NCBI GenBank assembly: GCA_002507545.1
Contig: DAVR01000029.1
Span: 1-64,000, forward strand
Direction of reading: 5' to 3'
Origin: Archaeoglobus sp. UBA230
Lineage (GTDB): Archaea > Halobacteriota > Archaeoglobi > Archaeoglobales > Archaeoglobaceae
DNA: 64,000 nt
Below are positions 26,780 through 57,691 of the stretch, piece after piece. The notes below the pieces were generated by a model. It had not been told where the DNA came from. It made no database searches and saw only the letters and a program-made list of their open reading frames with translations. The translations under genes were made by a program, and so were the position numbers. Within the stretch, counting starts at the first letter, position 1. Each line of letters starts with the position of its first letter.

Positions 26780-27751
26780 ATGGATGTCGCTGAAAAGCTA
26801 AAGCTCGCAATGAGAAACGCAGAAGAAGTTGTAACTGAGGAGGAGTTAAAACATCTGATTGAAACCTCCGAAAGACCCACAGCATATGTCGGTTACGAGC
26901 CGAGCGGTGAGATACATCTGGGACACATGATGACTGTGCAGAAGCTGATAGATTTGCAGAAAGTTGGATTCAGAATTATCGTTCTTCTTGCTGATATTCA
27001 CGCTTACCTGAATGAGAAAGGTACGTTTGAGGAGATTGCTGAGGTGGCTGAATACAACAAGAGGGTTTTCATAGCACTTGGTCTCGATGAGAGTATGGCA
27101 AAATTCGTGCTTGGCAGCGAGTATCAGCTCAATAGAGACTACGTCCTCGATGTCCTGAAGCTTGCGAGGATTACGACGCTCAACAGAGCAAGAAGAAGTA
27201 TGGATGAAGTAAGCAGAAGAAAAGAGGATCCGATGGTATCGCAGATGATATATCCACTCATGCAGGCTCTTGATATAGCACACCTTGGGGTTGATTTAGC
27301 TGTTGGTGGGATAGACCAGAGAAAAATACACATGCTTGCAAGAGAGAATCTACCAAAGCTGGGTTACAAATCACCAGTATGCTTGCACACTCCAATTCTT
27401 GTCGGGCTTGATGGTGAGAAAATGAGCAGTTCTAAGGGTAACTACATCTCCGTCAGAGATGCCCCGGATGTCGTGGAGAGAAAGATCAGGAAAGCCTACT
27501 GTCCTGCTGGTGTTGTTGAAGACAATCCCATACTGGATATTGCGAGATATCACATCTTTCCGAGGTTCGGGGAGATGAAAATTGAAAGAGACGCTAAGTT
27601 CGGAGGAGATGTTGAATACGAGAGCTTTGAAAATCTGGTAGAAGATTTCAAATCAGGCTCGCTACATCCACTTGACCTAAAAATTGCCGTGGCAAAATAT
27701 TTAAACAAGCTTCTCGAAGATGCAAGAAAAAGATTAGAGGTGTCTGTCTGA
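26780..27751 (+). CDS. tyrS: Tyrosyl-tRNA synthetase
   Basis: 323 residues, the archaeal compact TyrRS. H-L-G-H at residues 46-49 replaces HIGH, and K-M-S-S-S at about 214-218 is the class I signature; the tyrosine pocket (Y-x-x-E-P near residue 38; Q-M-I-Y-P-L-M-Q) is present. A TATA-like TTTTAAAA at about 26750-26757 precedes. Its stop codon overlaps the apparent CTG start of the aIF1A gene. Confidence 0.96.
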
Positions 27752-28041
27752 GTGATGAAGAGGATGTAATCAGGGTCAGACTTCCGGACAGGAATAAGGG
27801 AGAGATGTTCGGGATAGTGACGTCTATGCTGGGAGCTGGGCACATAAGGGTCAGATGTGAGGATGGTGTAGAGAGACTGGCAAGAATTCCGGGAAAGATG
27901 AGGAAGAGAATCTGGATCAGGGAAGGAGACGTTGTCATAGTCGTTCCCTGGTCGTTCCAGAAAGATAGAGGAGACATAGTCTGGAGATACACAAACCCGC
28001 AGGTTGAGTGGCTTGAGAGAAAGGGATATCTGAAGTTCTGA
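27748..28041 (+). CDS. eif1A: Translation initiation factor aIF1A, apparently with a CTG start
   Basis: 97 residues if it starts at CTG 27748, which overlaps the tyrS stop as CTGA and has GAGGTG 5 nt upstream (27737-27742). This gives an N-terminus ([12 protein letters not shown]) and a complete OB fold with G-A-G-H-I-R-V-R and G-D-V-V-I-V-V-P-W. No ATG, GTG or TTG is available in frame upstream of ATG 27805, which would remove the first strand of the OB fold. aIF1A binds the small subunit A site and helps start-codon selection. It lies between tyrS and the DUF1152 gene. Confidence 0.85.
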
Positions 28042-28042
28042 A

Positions 28043-28966
28043 ATGGAGATTATTGATCTTCTGAAAGAGGCGGAGAGTAGGAAAGCTCTTGCTTTCGGAA
28101 TCGGTGGCGGAGGAGATATAGTAAGCACGATACCCATTGCGGGGTTTCTGAGGCATTTTGGGTTTGAAGTCTACCACGGTAGCATAATCTGGGACAGAAT
28201 AGTTGTTGATCCCAAACCCGGTCCGAGAAGTCTGGAGGAACTTGAAAGCATTGAAGTCATTAACAATACTGTAGGAATTGCAAACGTGAAAACGAGAACC
28301 AAAGACGGGGTCACACCCAATATCGCGAGGAGTGCAAGGCATTTCGGGAGGGTTGTGGCGCTCGATATCACGAAGGGTGTGGCAAAGCTGGCAGAAGGGA
28401 TAAGAGACTTTGCGGAAAAAGAGAGTATTTCAGTCATAATTGGAGTTGATGCGGGGGGAGATGCGATCTCAGTAGGTTTTGAGTCTGGAGTTAGAAGTCC
28501 CCTCGCTGATGCGATGTGTGTCGCAGCGTTAAAGCAGGTTGATGGAATAGTTGCGGTTACGGGCTTCGGCAGCGATGGAGAGCTGAGGGTGGAAGAGCTT
28601 TTGCTAAACATTTCGCAGATTTTAGCCAATGGGGGCTTTCTCGGATGCTCATCCATGAGTAAGAGGGATTACCTGCTGATGAAGGAAGTAATCAGAGATG
28701 TTACAACGGAAGCGAGTCTGATACCTGTTCTGGCTTACGAAGGTGAGATGGGATTGAAGAAGCTCAGAAAGGGTAGAACAGCTTTAATTACCCCTCTTTC
28801 AACCCTGATCTTCTACTTCAAAGCGAAGGGCGTTTTTGAAATTAATGAGGCTGCAAAAATTGTTGAAAAAGCTTCAAATTTTGAGGAGGCTAACAGACTG
28901 CTCAATGCAGAGGGGATTCTGACTGAATACGACTTTGAGAGGGCTGTGAGCGGGTTAAAGATTTGA
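28043..28966 (+). CDS. DUF1152 protein, unknown function
   Basis: 307 residues. N-terminal A-F-G-I-G-G-G-G-D-I-V is a nucleotide-binding-like glycine loop of the DUF1152 family; G-V-D-A-G-G-D-A lies at about residues 134-141. Cytoplasmic, no membrane helix. It starts 1 nt after aIF1A and may be cotranscribed with it and tyrS. The family is archaeal and its enzymatic role is not known to me. Confidence 0.8.
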   Translation: MEIIDLLKEAESRKALAFGIGGGGDIVSTIPIAGFLRHFGFEVYHGSIIWDRIVVDPKPGPRSLEELESIEVINNTVGIANVKTRTKDGVTPNIARSARHFGRVVALDITKGVAKLAEGIRDFAEKESISVIIGVDAGGDAISVGFESGVRSPLADAMCVAALKQVDGIVAVTGFGSDGELRVEELLLNISQILANGGFLGCSSMSKRDYLLMKEVIRDVTTEASLIPVLAYEGEMGLKKLRKGRTALITPLSTLIFYFKAKGVFEINEAAKIVEKASNFEEANRLLNAEGILTEYDFERAVSGLKI

Positions 28967-54206: not shown

Positions 54207-56105
54207 TTATGATATATTTTTTGTTGCAAATATGTAAGTTCCCCTGCTTTCGAAGACTTTTGTGAAACATCTTTCAAATTTTTCAGGTGATACGGAGAAA
54301 ATCCTCTTTTCCTCGTATCCAAAAAAAACATAGCTTATATTATACTTACTGACAATCTTTAACATCTCATCGCATGAACTGGTTGTGTAGAACTCTCTCA
54401 CATCATTCGCTCTTTCAGCTATTATCGGGTAATCTCTCCTCCATGCAAACTCGTGATTAGTCCACGCAATCACTGCAGGATTTCCAGTAAAGGCTGAAAC
54501 TCTGCCACCATATTTATAACCGCACAAGGCTCCATGGGTGCAACCTTCCTCTATTATAACCCCACTCTTCCCTTGAAGCCATTTTATCGCCTCATAATCT
54601 CCATCGAAGGTTTTCATAAAAGCCATGCCATCAAGTGTGCACTCTCTAAGGTTATACCTCACAGGCGTTGCCGCCATGGGATAAACGAGGCTAACTACAA
54701 GGACTAAAACGACTACATATTTCCTGACATCCCCAAATTCAAGCTTCGTTGCTGGGGCTATCATCAGCGAGAGCCAAGCTACGATGTAGAACTTAAATAC
54801 AGTGTTCAGTCGCGATTCAACAGCCACAAACTCTGGCAGGATGAAAGCCATAAGACCCGTGAGAACTATTGCTGAAGCAACATCCTTCTTGTAGATACCA
54901 TAGACCGACGATATCGCAAGAGGTGCCGTTAAAGCTAAAACCGGAGAGATAAAATAGAGCGGAATGGACAGGGGTAAAGAGTAAAGGGTGTATCTGTTCC
55001 CGGTGAAAAGGTAGGAGAAAAACAATGGTGTGAGGGCATACATCAGGAACTCAATGGCATTAGTCTTATCCTCAACAAGAAAAATCTTTGCTGCGGGAGT
55101 GTTCATGCTTGAGTAAAGCAAGATGACGAAGGGGATTGAAAGGATTAAGGCAATGACGATTTCTTTTTTCTTCAGTGATAGAGCCGCAAGAAGGCAAGCT
55201 AAAGCAGCTAAGGGATAATCCCACGAATTTGTGGCGAAAATAGCAAAGAGCGCTAAGGCGAGTGCAAGTGTTGTTCTTCTGCCATACTCTTTACCTTCAA
55301 CTTCCTCCCAGCTCCTGAGGATTAGAGAAATTATGAGGGTAAAAATGGGGATTGCGACAACGTGAGCATGCAGGTCAGCATGTATGAAGCTGAAATACGG
55401 AAACTCGTTAATTGTGTCGGCTATCACCCTCGTTGCGTTCCAATAATAACCACCATCAATGACCTTTCCCGCAAAAACTCTTCTAAGGAAATCTACGAAG
55501 GAGTAAGCGTTTCCAGAAAAGATTGAAAGAGCAATTCCACTTAATGCAACCTTCATCCCCTTCCTTCTCAAAATTCCGTAGATTATGACTGCAGTGTAGG
55601 CAGGTATTGCAGACATGGCAATGTTATAACCCACTTCTGGAGGAGAGAAGGACATCAGGGTTATGCAGGCTGAAATCACGTGGCCAAAGTAGTAGTAGAA
55701 GTCAAGCTTTCCGCCAGCAAAGAATGGATCATCCGGAGGGAAAGCTGAGGACTTCAACACTGCGTTCATGAAGGCTGAATCCATGAACTTCTCTGCATCT
55801 TGAATGTAGGGATTTAGGAAGCGAAGAAATATGAAGAAGGCAAAAACGAGAGCGAAAACAGTTTCAGTATTTTCAACCTTTACTTTGTCGGAATAGATCG
55901 TGTAAAGGGATACACCAATTGTGACTGCGAATACAATATAGAAGGAAATTTTAAAGGGAAACACAAATCCGATGGCAAAGGAGATAGCTGAGATTGTTAA
56001 AAGGGAAAGAAATCTCGCTTCACTGAACTTAAAAAACTTCAGAAATGGGATAGTTACAAGCAGAGAGGACAGGTAAAAGCAGAGGGCGTAGATCAGGGTG
56101 TACAA
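54207..56105 (-). CDS. DUF2298 (YYY-motif) polytopic membrane protein, probable glycosyltransferase-like
   Basis: 632 residues with more than ten membrane helices. The family tyrosine motif is F-Y-Y-Y-F-G-H (about 134-140), with D-P-F-F-A-G-G upstream and H-A-D-L-H-A-H in an extracytoplasmic loop. The fold resembles GT-C glycosyltransferases using polyprenyl-phosphate sugars, and the neighbour gene is a GT2 with a flippase-like domain. The TTG at 56105 follows GGAGGG and is separated by 2 nt from that gene's end. Confidence 0.82.
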   Translation of the reverse strand: MYTLIYALCFYLSSLLVTIPFLKFFKFSEARFLSLLTISAISFAIGFVFPFKISFYIVFAVTIGVSLYTIYSDKVKVENTETVFALVFAFFIFLRFLNPYIQDAEKFMDSAFMNAVLKSSAFPPDDPFFAGGKLDFYYYFGHVISACITLMSFSPPEVGYNIAMSAIPAYTAVIIYGILRRKGMKVALSGIALSIFSGNAYSFVDFLRRVFAGKVIDGGYYWNATRVIADTINEFPYFSFIHADLHAHVVAIPIFTLIISLILRSWEEVEGKEYGRRTTLALALALFAIFATNSWDYPLAALACLLAALSLKKKEIVIALILSIPFVILLYSSMNTPAAKIFLVEDKTNAIEFLMYALTPLFFSYLFTGNRYTLYSLPLSIPLYFISPVLALTAPLAISSVYGIYKKDVASAIVLTGLMAFILPEFVAVESRLNTVFKFYIVAWLSLMIAPATKLEFGDVRKYVVVLVLVVSLVYPMAATPVRYNLRECTLDGMAFMKTFDGDYEAIKWLQGKSGVIIEEGCTHGALCGYKYGGRVSAFTGNPAVIAWTNHEFAWRRDYPIIAERANDVREFYTTSSCDEMLKIVSKYNISYVFFGYEEKRIFSVSPEKFERCFTKVFESRGTYIFATKNIS

Positions 56106-56107
56106 TT

Positions 56108-57691
56108 CTATCCCTCCACCTCTCTGAGACTGAGATTAAGAGATGCAAGAGCCAGAATGCCAAGAACCATGGTTGAAACGTTCTTTACAGCGTGATCAAC
56201 CAGAGCAATTGTGAAGGCAGCTCCAGTGCTGTAGCCAGAGGAGAGAATTGCTGTGAGAGCTGCCTCATAAGTGCCAATCCCACCGGGCGTTATCGGCAAG
56301 GCCTTAACTATGTTCCCCAATGCAACCGCGAGGGCAACAAGGACGAAATCTGGATTACCGAAACTCAAAGCAATTATGTAGCACACGAAAATATCGGAAA
56401 ACCAGAGAAGGAGGGAGAGGGATACTACAACAATGCTCTCCTTTATCCCCATAGCCTTTCTGGCGTTTCTGAAAATTTTTCCAACAATATTTTCCATCCT
56501 TGAAAGAGCAAAGATTCCCGTAAATATCAAGACGGAGAAGAGGAGCGCGTAGACAGGCTCCCTAATTCCAGAACCGATGATCAATGCGGAAACCATGGCA
56601 ATTATAGCCACAGAAATGAGATCAAAAAACCTCTCGGCAGCAATACCCCCGATCGAAGATGAATAGGGAACATCCCTCCGCTTAAAAACGTACGCCCTTG
56701 CCATGTCTCCTATTCTGACAGGCGTGATAACATTCACAGTCTGACTTATGCTCACGGCAGCTGTTGAGAAGGCAGTACTGCGATTATACCCAAGCTTTGA
56801 TAAGATATACCTAAATCTGTAGCCTCTAAGGACGTAGGAGAGAGCGTATAAGGCTGAGGAAGCAACTATATAGTAGAGATTTATGGACAGCAAGCTTTGG
56901 TAAACGTTCTGCAATCCGGCTCTGTAGGCTATAAAAGTGAGGATCACAACTGCAATAACTGTCGTCAGAAACAAATACTTCCTGCTCCTCTTCCTCTCAT
57001 TGAGCCACATTCTGAGAACTTGAGAAAACATGTAGACCACATCTTTCCCAAAATCTACCTTCGTCTCCCCTCCATGTCTCCACTCAACCGGAATTTCCTT
57101 GACTTTGTAACCTCTCTTCTGAGCCAGAACCAAAACTTCGGTGTCCCAGAACCAGTGATTGTCCTTTACATACTTTGCAATCTCAAGAATCACCTGCTTC
57201 CTGAAAGCTTTGAAACCGCACTGATGATCGTGGATTTTTGAGCCGAGAAATAGGCGAACGAGAAAATTGTATCCACGAGAGGCAATTTCTCTTTTTGCTG
57301 GTCTGTCTGTCCTGCTCTCCTTCATCAGCCTTGATCCGGTTGCAATATCGTAGCCATCAACCACTATTGCATCAACAAGCTCCTTGAGGTGCTTCAAATC
57401 TGTGGCAAGATCAACGTCCATATAAACTACCACATCGCCTGTCGCCTTGTCAAAGGCGTTCATAAGGGCTCTTCCCCGCCCAAGTCTTTCATCTGAATGC
57501 AGATGGACTATTTTTGAGTTTTCAGAGGAAAGCTCAGCCGCTATTTTGTCTGTCCCATCCGTCGAACCGTCTTCGGCTATGATGATCTCATAGTCGTATC
57601 CAGTTTTCTCAGCAGCCTCTCGAACTTTTTCAACAGTCTCTCTTAACCTCTTTGCCTCGTTGTACGCTGGCAGAACGATGCTGATCTTCAT
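56108..57691 (-). CDS. Dolichyl-phosphate glycosyltransferase fused to a flippase-like membrane domain (AglD-like)
   Basis: 527 residues. A GT2 domain (residues about 1-235) has the D-x-D-type V-Y-M-D-V-D-L-A, P-A-Y-N-E and E-D-G-S-T-D-G; it is followed by a lysylphosphatidylglycerol-synthase/flippase-type membrane domain (about 245-520) with P-I-R-I-G-D-type and P-G-G-I-G-T-Y-E-A motifs. This architecture matches haloarchaeal AglD, which charges a dolichol with a sugar for glycoprotein assembly. First gene of the leftward group. Confidence 0.88.
   Translation of the reverse strand: MKISIVLPAYNEAKRLRETVEKVREAAEKTGYDYEIIIAEDGSTDGTDKIAAELSSENSKIVHLHSDERLGRGRALMNAFDKATGDVVVYMDVDLATDLKHLKELVDAIVVDGYDIATGSRLMKESRTDRPAKREIASRGYNFLVRLFLGSKIHDHQCGFKAFRKQVILEIAKYVKDNHWFWDTEVLVLAQKRGYKVKEIPVEWRHGGETKVDFGKDVVYMFSQVLRMWLNERKRSRKYLFLTTVIAVVILTFIAYRAGLQNVYQSLLSINLYYIVASSALYALSYVLRGYRFRYILSKLGYNRSTAFSTAAVSISQTVNVITPVRIGDMARAYVFKRRDVPYSSSIGGIAAERFFDLISVAIIAMVSALIIGSGIREPVYALLFSVLIFTGIFALSRMENIVGKIFRNARKAMGIKESIVVVSLSLLLWFSDIFVCYIIALSFGNPDFVLVALAVALGNIVKALPITPGGIGTYEAALTAILSSGYSTGAAFTIALVDHAVKNVSTMVLGILALASLNLSLREVEG

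Follow-up and report, generated by a model that had tools for sequence, protein, structure and literature searches.

A conserved CTG start codon of the archaeal initiation factor gene aIF1A suggests that the factor may control its own production

The aIF1A locus in the window and the start of its coding sequence

The window, by which we mean the whole stretch of 64,000 nucleotides that was analysed, carries on its + strand the gene of the archaeal initiation factor aIF1A, read in the order tyrS, aIF1A, DUF1152 gene (Table 1). The open frame of aIF1A extends from 27676 to its stop codon at 28039-28041. According to the original prediction, translation starts at a CTG placed five nucleotides behind a GAGGTG site and overlapping the tyrS stop as CTGA, and direct reading bears out this arrangement, the TGA at 27749-27751 being common to both. 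The frame listing likewise agrees that ATG, GTG and TTG are absent in frame before the ATG at 27805.

Table 1. Position of the aIF1A gene, its start signals and its neighbours in the window
Feature	Position	Strand	Evidence and remarks
tyrS, tyrosine--tRNA ligase	26780..27751	+	NF006330, 480.6 bits; upstream neighbour of aIF1A, same direction
Shine-Dalgarno site GAGGTG	27737..27742	+	Within the tyrS 3' end; 5 nt (27743-27747) ahead of the CTG
aIF1A coding sequence, 97 aa and stop	27748..28041	+	TIGR00523, 162.6 bits; PF01176, 95.3 bits; best solved relative 1jt8
CTG start codon of aIF1A	27748..27750	+	Direct reading; conserved in relatives
ATG, first canonical in-frame codon of aIF1A	27805..27807	+	Codon 20, within the OB domain; rejected as the start
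DUF1152 gene	28043..28966	+	PF06626, 326.3 bits; ATG one base past the aIF1A stop

The claim that the CTG gives a full fold also stands. Indeed, the product read from it fills TIGR00523 (cut-off 102.9 bits), its residues 3-97 covering model positions 4-98 of 98, with the Pfam eIF-1a domain at residues 18-80, and in sequence comparison with solved structures it aligns from query residue 4 or 5 with 1jt8 (E 6.8e-35) and 5jb3 (E 2.7e-30). A start at ATG 27805 would truncate this fold, as had been stated, the 19 residues lost including the conserved VIRVRLP stretch and the two that open the Pfam OB domain. The match to the bacterial infA model TIGR00008 is weak (31.9 bits against a cut-off of 61.15), and scans of NCBIfam and Pfam (E ≤ 0.001) gave solely eIF-1A/aIF-1A/IF-1 models and no homology to IF3.

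Among the other frames of the window, the first canonical codon is found at frame codon 0-23 in all 31 compared with codon 43 in aIF1A, which is a weak control given that the true starts of these 31 are not established. This 32-frame listing consists of 31 of the 36 frames of an earlier similarity scan, with aIF1A replacing its antisense frame and four frames left out. The DNA-similarity scan itself was rejected as coding evidence since it confuses similarity with coding, the 8 of 36 frames that it flagged including the one antisense to aIF1A. Two further observations were made in the window. Right behind the CTG, at 27752-27769, an out-of-frame GTG ATG AAG AGG ATG TAA makes up a very small decoy frame, and its GTGATG is not kept in every relative. 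On the - strand, a long conserved frame at 54207-56135 has TTG as its first canonical codon, with GGAGG upstream at the same spacing, and its next canonical codon lies 47 codons beyond.

In order to locate the beginning of the coding sequence, variability was compared by codon position in 29 loci. In the six codons before LPDR, downstream of the CTG, the variability of positions 1, 2 and 3 is 0.19, 0.07 and 0.55 respectively, compared with 0.46, 0.44 and 0.50 in the eight codons upstream of the CTG in the same loci. The same pattern is seen in a subset of 15 loci in which no tyrS was detected or its stop lies 14 to 70 bases upstream. Furthermore, among the 95 loci assigned a CTG or ATT start in the survey described below, 62 have no in-frame ATG, GTG or TTG between the upstream stop and the point six codons ahead of the LPDR motif, while such a stretch free of canonical codons occurs in 0 of 42 comparison loci (mostly Thermoplasmata and nearly all from other phyla, with one haloarchaeon, L104, and the phylum of some not stated). 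In the remaining 33 of the 95, at least one of these codons stands in frame upstream or in the tail and, given this canonical alternative, their start call rests on the Shine-Dalgarno (SD) site and on position.

The SD site itself points to the same codon. The 16S 3' end of this genome reads GGATCACCTCCT, to which GAGGTG is complementary, and the 16S 3' end sequence GGCTGGATCACCTCCT occurs once in the genome. With the site five bases from the start, the mean SD match over the 95 CTG/ATT loci is 5.2 of 7, and none of the other shifts from -6 to +6 exceeds a mean of 3.6. At this five-base spacing, 75 of the 95 loci agree with GGAGGTG in five or more of its 7 places. An RNA hairpin at the start was considered as well and rejected, the mean fold z being -0.29 over 88 CTG loci with 30 mononucleotide shuffles each.

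A gene finder limited to ATG, GTG and TTG would accept ATG 27805 as its first codon, and one could suppose either that translation begins there behind an untranslated segment or that the CTG is a sequencing error. However, that segment evolves as protein, belongs to the TIGR00523 model and can be aligned with 1jt8 and 5jb3 in their N-terminal parts, while the CTG is found again in independent assemblies, several single-contig genomes among them. We give this explanation next to no chance, and the doubt raised originally about an ATG or TTG hidden by an error at 27748 is removed by these independent relatives. The CTG start is thereby strongly supported and comparison of relatives establishes, as far as sequence evidence can, that aIF1A is translated from a CUG at the five-base SD spacing here and in most of the SD-using lineages sampled in the phylum.

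Start codons of aIF1A in Archaeoglobales and across the phylum

In Archaeoglobales, aIF1A is present in 51 of the 57 genomes searched, with no match in the other 6. The original prediction had proposed to look throughout this order for an NTG accompanied by the ribosome site, and both were found in all 50 readable loci. Leaving out L126, whose locus is cut at a contig end, these 50 loci display CTG in 31, TTG in 14 and ATG in 5. Family f1 accounts for 48 of them (CTG 29, TTG 14, ATG 5) and family f2 for two, both with CTG. Within the order, TTG is the start in 7/7 loci of genus g7 and in 2/2 of genus g6. Positions -9 to -6 are nearly invariant across the 48 loci of f1 (G 47, G 47, T 46, G 47). 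The sole further family of the class that was examined, f3, shows CTG in three loci.

Across the phylum, aIF1A was found in 294 of 295 genomes. A first sample of 101 loci displayed CTG in 57, TTG in 19, ATG in 16, GTG in 7 and ATT in 2. Sixteen of these loci, from nine families, have no SD site at the assigned start (9 ATG, 7 GTG), and we infer that these families resemble haloarchaea and are leaderless-looking. With the nine families set aside, 123 loci from 22 families display CTG in 88, TTG in 19, ATG in 9, ATT in 7 and GTG in 0; the loci are related rather than independent, genera g1 and g13 contributing many of them. CTG is present in 20 of the 22 families, while f14 and f7, with two loci each, have TTG only. 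Counted by genus, the starts other than CTG are TTG in 8, ATG in 6 and ATT in 4, and one genus, g11, has ATG in all four readable loci. Both copies start with CTG in the two-copy genomes G059 and G147. CTG accompanies SD-led initiation and is absent from the leaderless-looking families sampled, as would be expected if CUG were usable only with an SD site.

Outside f1-f3 the genomes were hand-picked to spread across families, and starts were assigned by the position of the SD site, 10 of them by hand in the first sample and all 38 later rows by hand. For f5 and f22, more loci were added once the first starts of these families had been read. The counts leave out L126 and L308 (partial), four f5 matches and one G272 match without loci, and the survey leaves out Methanobacteriota and Thermoproteota.

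The ATT assignments are weaker than those of CTG. Six of the seven come from family f22 (L182, L304, L305, L306, L307 and L311), at the same place and at the five-base SD spacing, and only one of the seven is without any other in-frame start in the tested stretch. What supports these calls is chiefly their spacing and common position, and less the lack of alternatives. Two loci outside the counts bear on unusual codons as well: a Methanoregula locus (L064) has ATT at the five-base spacing but also an upstream ATG, with no SD site by eye, and L308, a partial locus, seems on inspection by eye to have ATA at the start position.

Several observations concern gene copies and close relatives. In genus g108, one locus of L164 and L172 starts with ATG and the other with CTG, a natural pair for an expression comparison. 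At least two aIF1A copies are found in 12 of 21 f5 genomes, and one of this family, G166, has three matches within about 2.7 kb (C1:2760529-2763236) and four in the whole genome. In the haloarchaea-like two-copy genomes (L183-L190, L197-L203), ATG is the start in 7 of 8 best-scoring copies and GTG in 6 of 7 second copies.

The neighbouring tyrS and the starts of other factor genes

In the window the aIF1A start overlaps the end of tyrS by four bases, and one reading is that ribosomes finishing tyrS at CTGA restart in place, the identity of the codon being then nearly irrelevant. Among short-distance gene pairs, a -4 overlap is indeed the arrangement met most often in the groups studied (PMC10666635). 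However, the start is conserved without the overlap. Of the 57 CTG loci of the first sample, 31 have a tyrS detected directly upstream and 26 do not (tblastn, E 1e-6, within 400 bases, a search that a diverged tyrS may escape), and the four-base overlap is found in only 12 of the 57, the tyrS stop lying 10 to 71 bases before the CTG in another 10. Furthermore, in 9 of the 12 overlapping loci the last tyrS codon is four-fold degenerate, leaving free the first base of the start codon, which is the base whose change yields ATG or GTG; either codon would thus have been available. By these counts the overlap is incidental to the CTG start, and we regard termination-reinitiation as very improbable. 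A frameshift fusion of TyrS and aIF1A was likewise rejected as a general cause because tyrS is undetected or 10 to 71 bases away in 36 of the 57 loci.

The start codons of three other factor genes, aIF1, aIF6 and aIF2-beta, were read in 30 of the same genomes, a panel chosen when most of its aIF1A states were known. Taking ATG where several canonical codons stand close together, the 90 control loci show 79 ATG, 6 GTG and 4 TTG, with 1 further upstream. In 89 of them a canonical start lies within 6 codons of the domain, and in the 90th the nearest canonical codons are 8 and 14 codons upstream. For aIF1 alone, ATG is the start in 29/30 loci (29 genomes). Compared with these three genes in 30 genomes, the CTG start is specific to aIF1A. 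Such starts are otherwise scarce: new CUG starts are among the rarest, with 2 of 61,358 ancestral AUG starts changed to CUG (PMC5622118), and in M. mazei ATG is the start of 79% of longer genes while CTG accounts for 5% of unannotated small frames (PMC11456600).

Possible self-regulation and comparison with known systems

The conserved start suggests that aIF1A may control its own production, as the original prediction had proposed. The factor occupies the A site of the initiation complex (PMC5103072). In P. abyssi it makes the pre-initiation complex more dynamic when aIF1 is present, and favours stable tRNA binding in the P site when aIF1 is absent, and the authors conclude that the two factors cooperate in start-codon selection (PMC6237735). 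Given these effects on the complex, the level of the factors should be felt at a codon whose pairing with the initiator tRNA is poor. The SD site would position the 30S subunit on the aIF1A mRNA, where initiator Met-tRNA would mispair with CUG at the first base, and acceptance of the CUG would depend on the stringency of the pre-initiation complex, set jointly by aIF1A and aIF1. Scarce aIF1A would lower stringency and raise CUG use, while plentiful aIF1A would have CUG complexes rejected. The net effect, with aIF1 in normal supply, would be a negative feedback by codon discrimination; as aIF1A stabilises P-site tRNA without aIF1, the sign of the feedback would then be opposite. We lean slightly towards the view that a weak start has been selected which lets initiation stringency set the aIF1A level, in an archaeal analogue of the AUU start of infC. 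Within this view, what we infer rather than read from the loci is that weakness has been selected, that feedback acts and in which direction, and which of aIF1A and aIF1 does the sensing.

In favour of such feedback, CTG persists across the phylum though ATG is one mutation away, and GTG is never used in the 123 loci. Likewise, two features expected of weak-start initiation-factor genes were found here, namely a conserved start other than ATG, GTG or TTG with a good SD site (CTG/ATT in 95/123 loci) and specificity to the gene, as seen against the 90 control loci of three factors in 30 genomes. Against it, aIF1, the better studied proofreading factor of archaea, has an ordinary ATG, and some lineages manage with ATG for aIF1A itself (9/123 loci). 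TTG, which is common among the replacements, may escape the discrimination, and ATG replacements (6 genera) are nearly as frequent as those by TTG (8).

A serious rival, if on balance an unlikely one, is that the CUG is the true start and holds aIF1A synthesis at a fixed low level relative to its operon neighbours, without any feedback. The same comparative start-codon data fit it, translation typically drops several-fold when another start takes the place of AUG (PMC5622118), and a good SD site at a set spacing suggests that strength is tuned. However, a weaker SD site with ATG would suffice for this, yet CTG with a good SD site is kept in 20 of 22 families. Moreover, CTG is kept in 26 of the 57 CTG loci without a detected adjacent tyrS, so that the output is not matched to one operon partner. 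It is still less probable that an old CTG start has been retained by drift with no regulatory role. The start is evidently replaceable, by ATG included: a poorly resolved tree of the 101 loci (86 columns, many unresolved forks) gives a rough count of 15 or more changes between five start states. On the other side, ATG is one substitution away, the other genes of the same genomes mainly use it, GTG is absent from the 123 loci, and changes from GUG and UUG to AUG are more frequent per codon than the reverse (PMC5622118; no rate for CUG is given there).

Taking up again the reading in which stringency sets the aIF1A level, it is possible, and we hold it tentatively, that aIF1A is the regulatory counterpart of infC: a phylum-wide factor of the IF1 family that would sense and set stringency via the CUG or AUU at the start of its own gene. 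The device would presuppose SD-dependent initiation and would have been lost where initiation turned leaderless. If this is true, bacteria and archaea separately reached the same trick, in which unrelated initiation factors are policed by their own poor start codon, and the aIF1A start is a natural reporter of start-codon stringency in archaea. Autoregulation of archaeal initiation factors thereby becomes directly testable in the genetically tractable Methanosarcina. Furthermore, gene finders restricted to ATG, GTG and TTG will misplace the aIF1A start in many genomes. Full-text literature searches, which have incomplete coverage, gave no report of a conserved CUG start of aIF1A among the matches listed, and an earlier report is possible. 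Stringency-sensitive starts of initiation-factor genes are known already, and what would be new here is the protein family, the domain of life and, for the most part, the codon.

The closest parallel, missing from the original prediction, is bacterial infC, the gene of IF3, which starts with ATT in E. coli and ATC in Streptomyces and is limited by IF3 through that start (PMC5472188). Both infC (PMC5472188) and aIF1A encode an initiation fidelity factor from a start other than ATG, GTG or TTG, and the ATT assigned in seven aIF1A loci is the codon of E. coli infC. Unlike infC, aIF1A belongs to the IF1/eIF1A OB-fold family and not to IF3, its start is mostly CUG, and its feedback is only proposed. 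Streptomyces sigR, with a GTC start repressed by IF3, is similar in having an unusual start, in being controlled by stringency and in being misannotated in genomes (PMC5472188), but it is bacterial and encodes a sigma factor rather than an initiation factor. Among eukaryotes, eIF1 is a start-selection factor that limits itself via a poor start site (discussed in PMC6237735), as is proposed here for aIF1A. However, eIF1 combines AUG with a poor context while aIF1A combines a poor codon with a good SD site, and the analogy is not simply transferable, the archaeal aIF1 gene having ATG in 29 of 30 loci. Finally, BZW1 and BZW2 are autoregulated via the stringency of start-codon selection (PMC5823381), in the manner proposed for aIF1A, but they are different proteins, eukaryotic and dependent on scanning.
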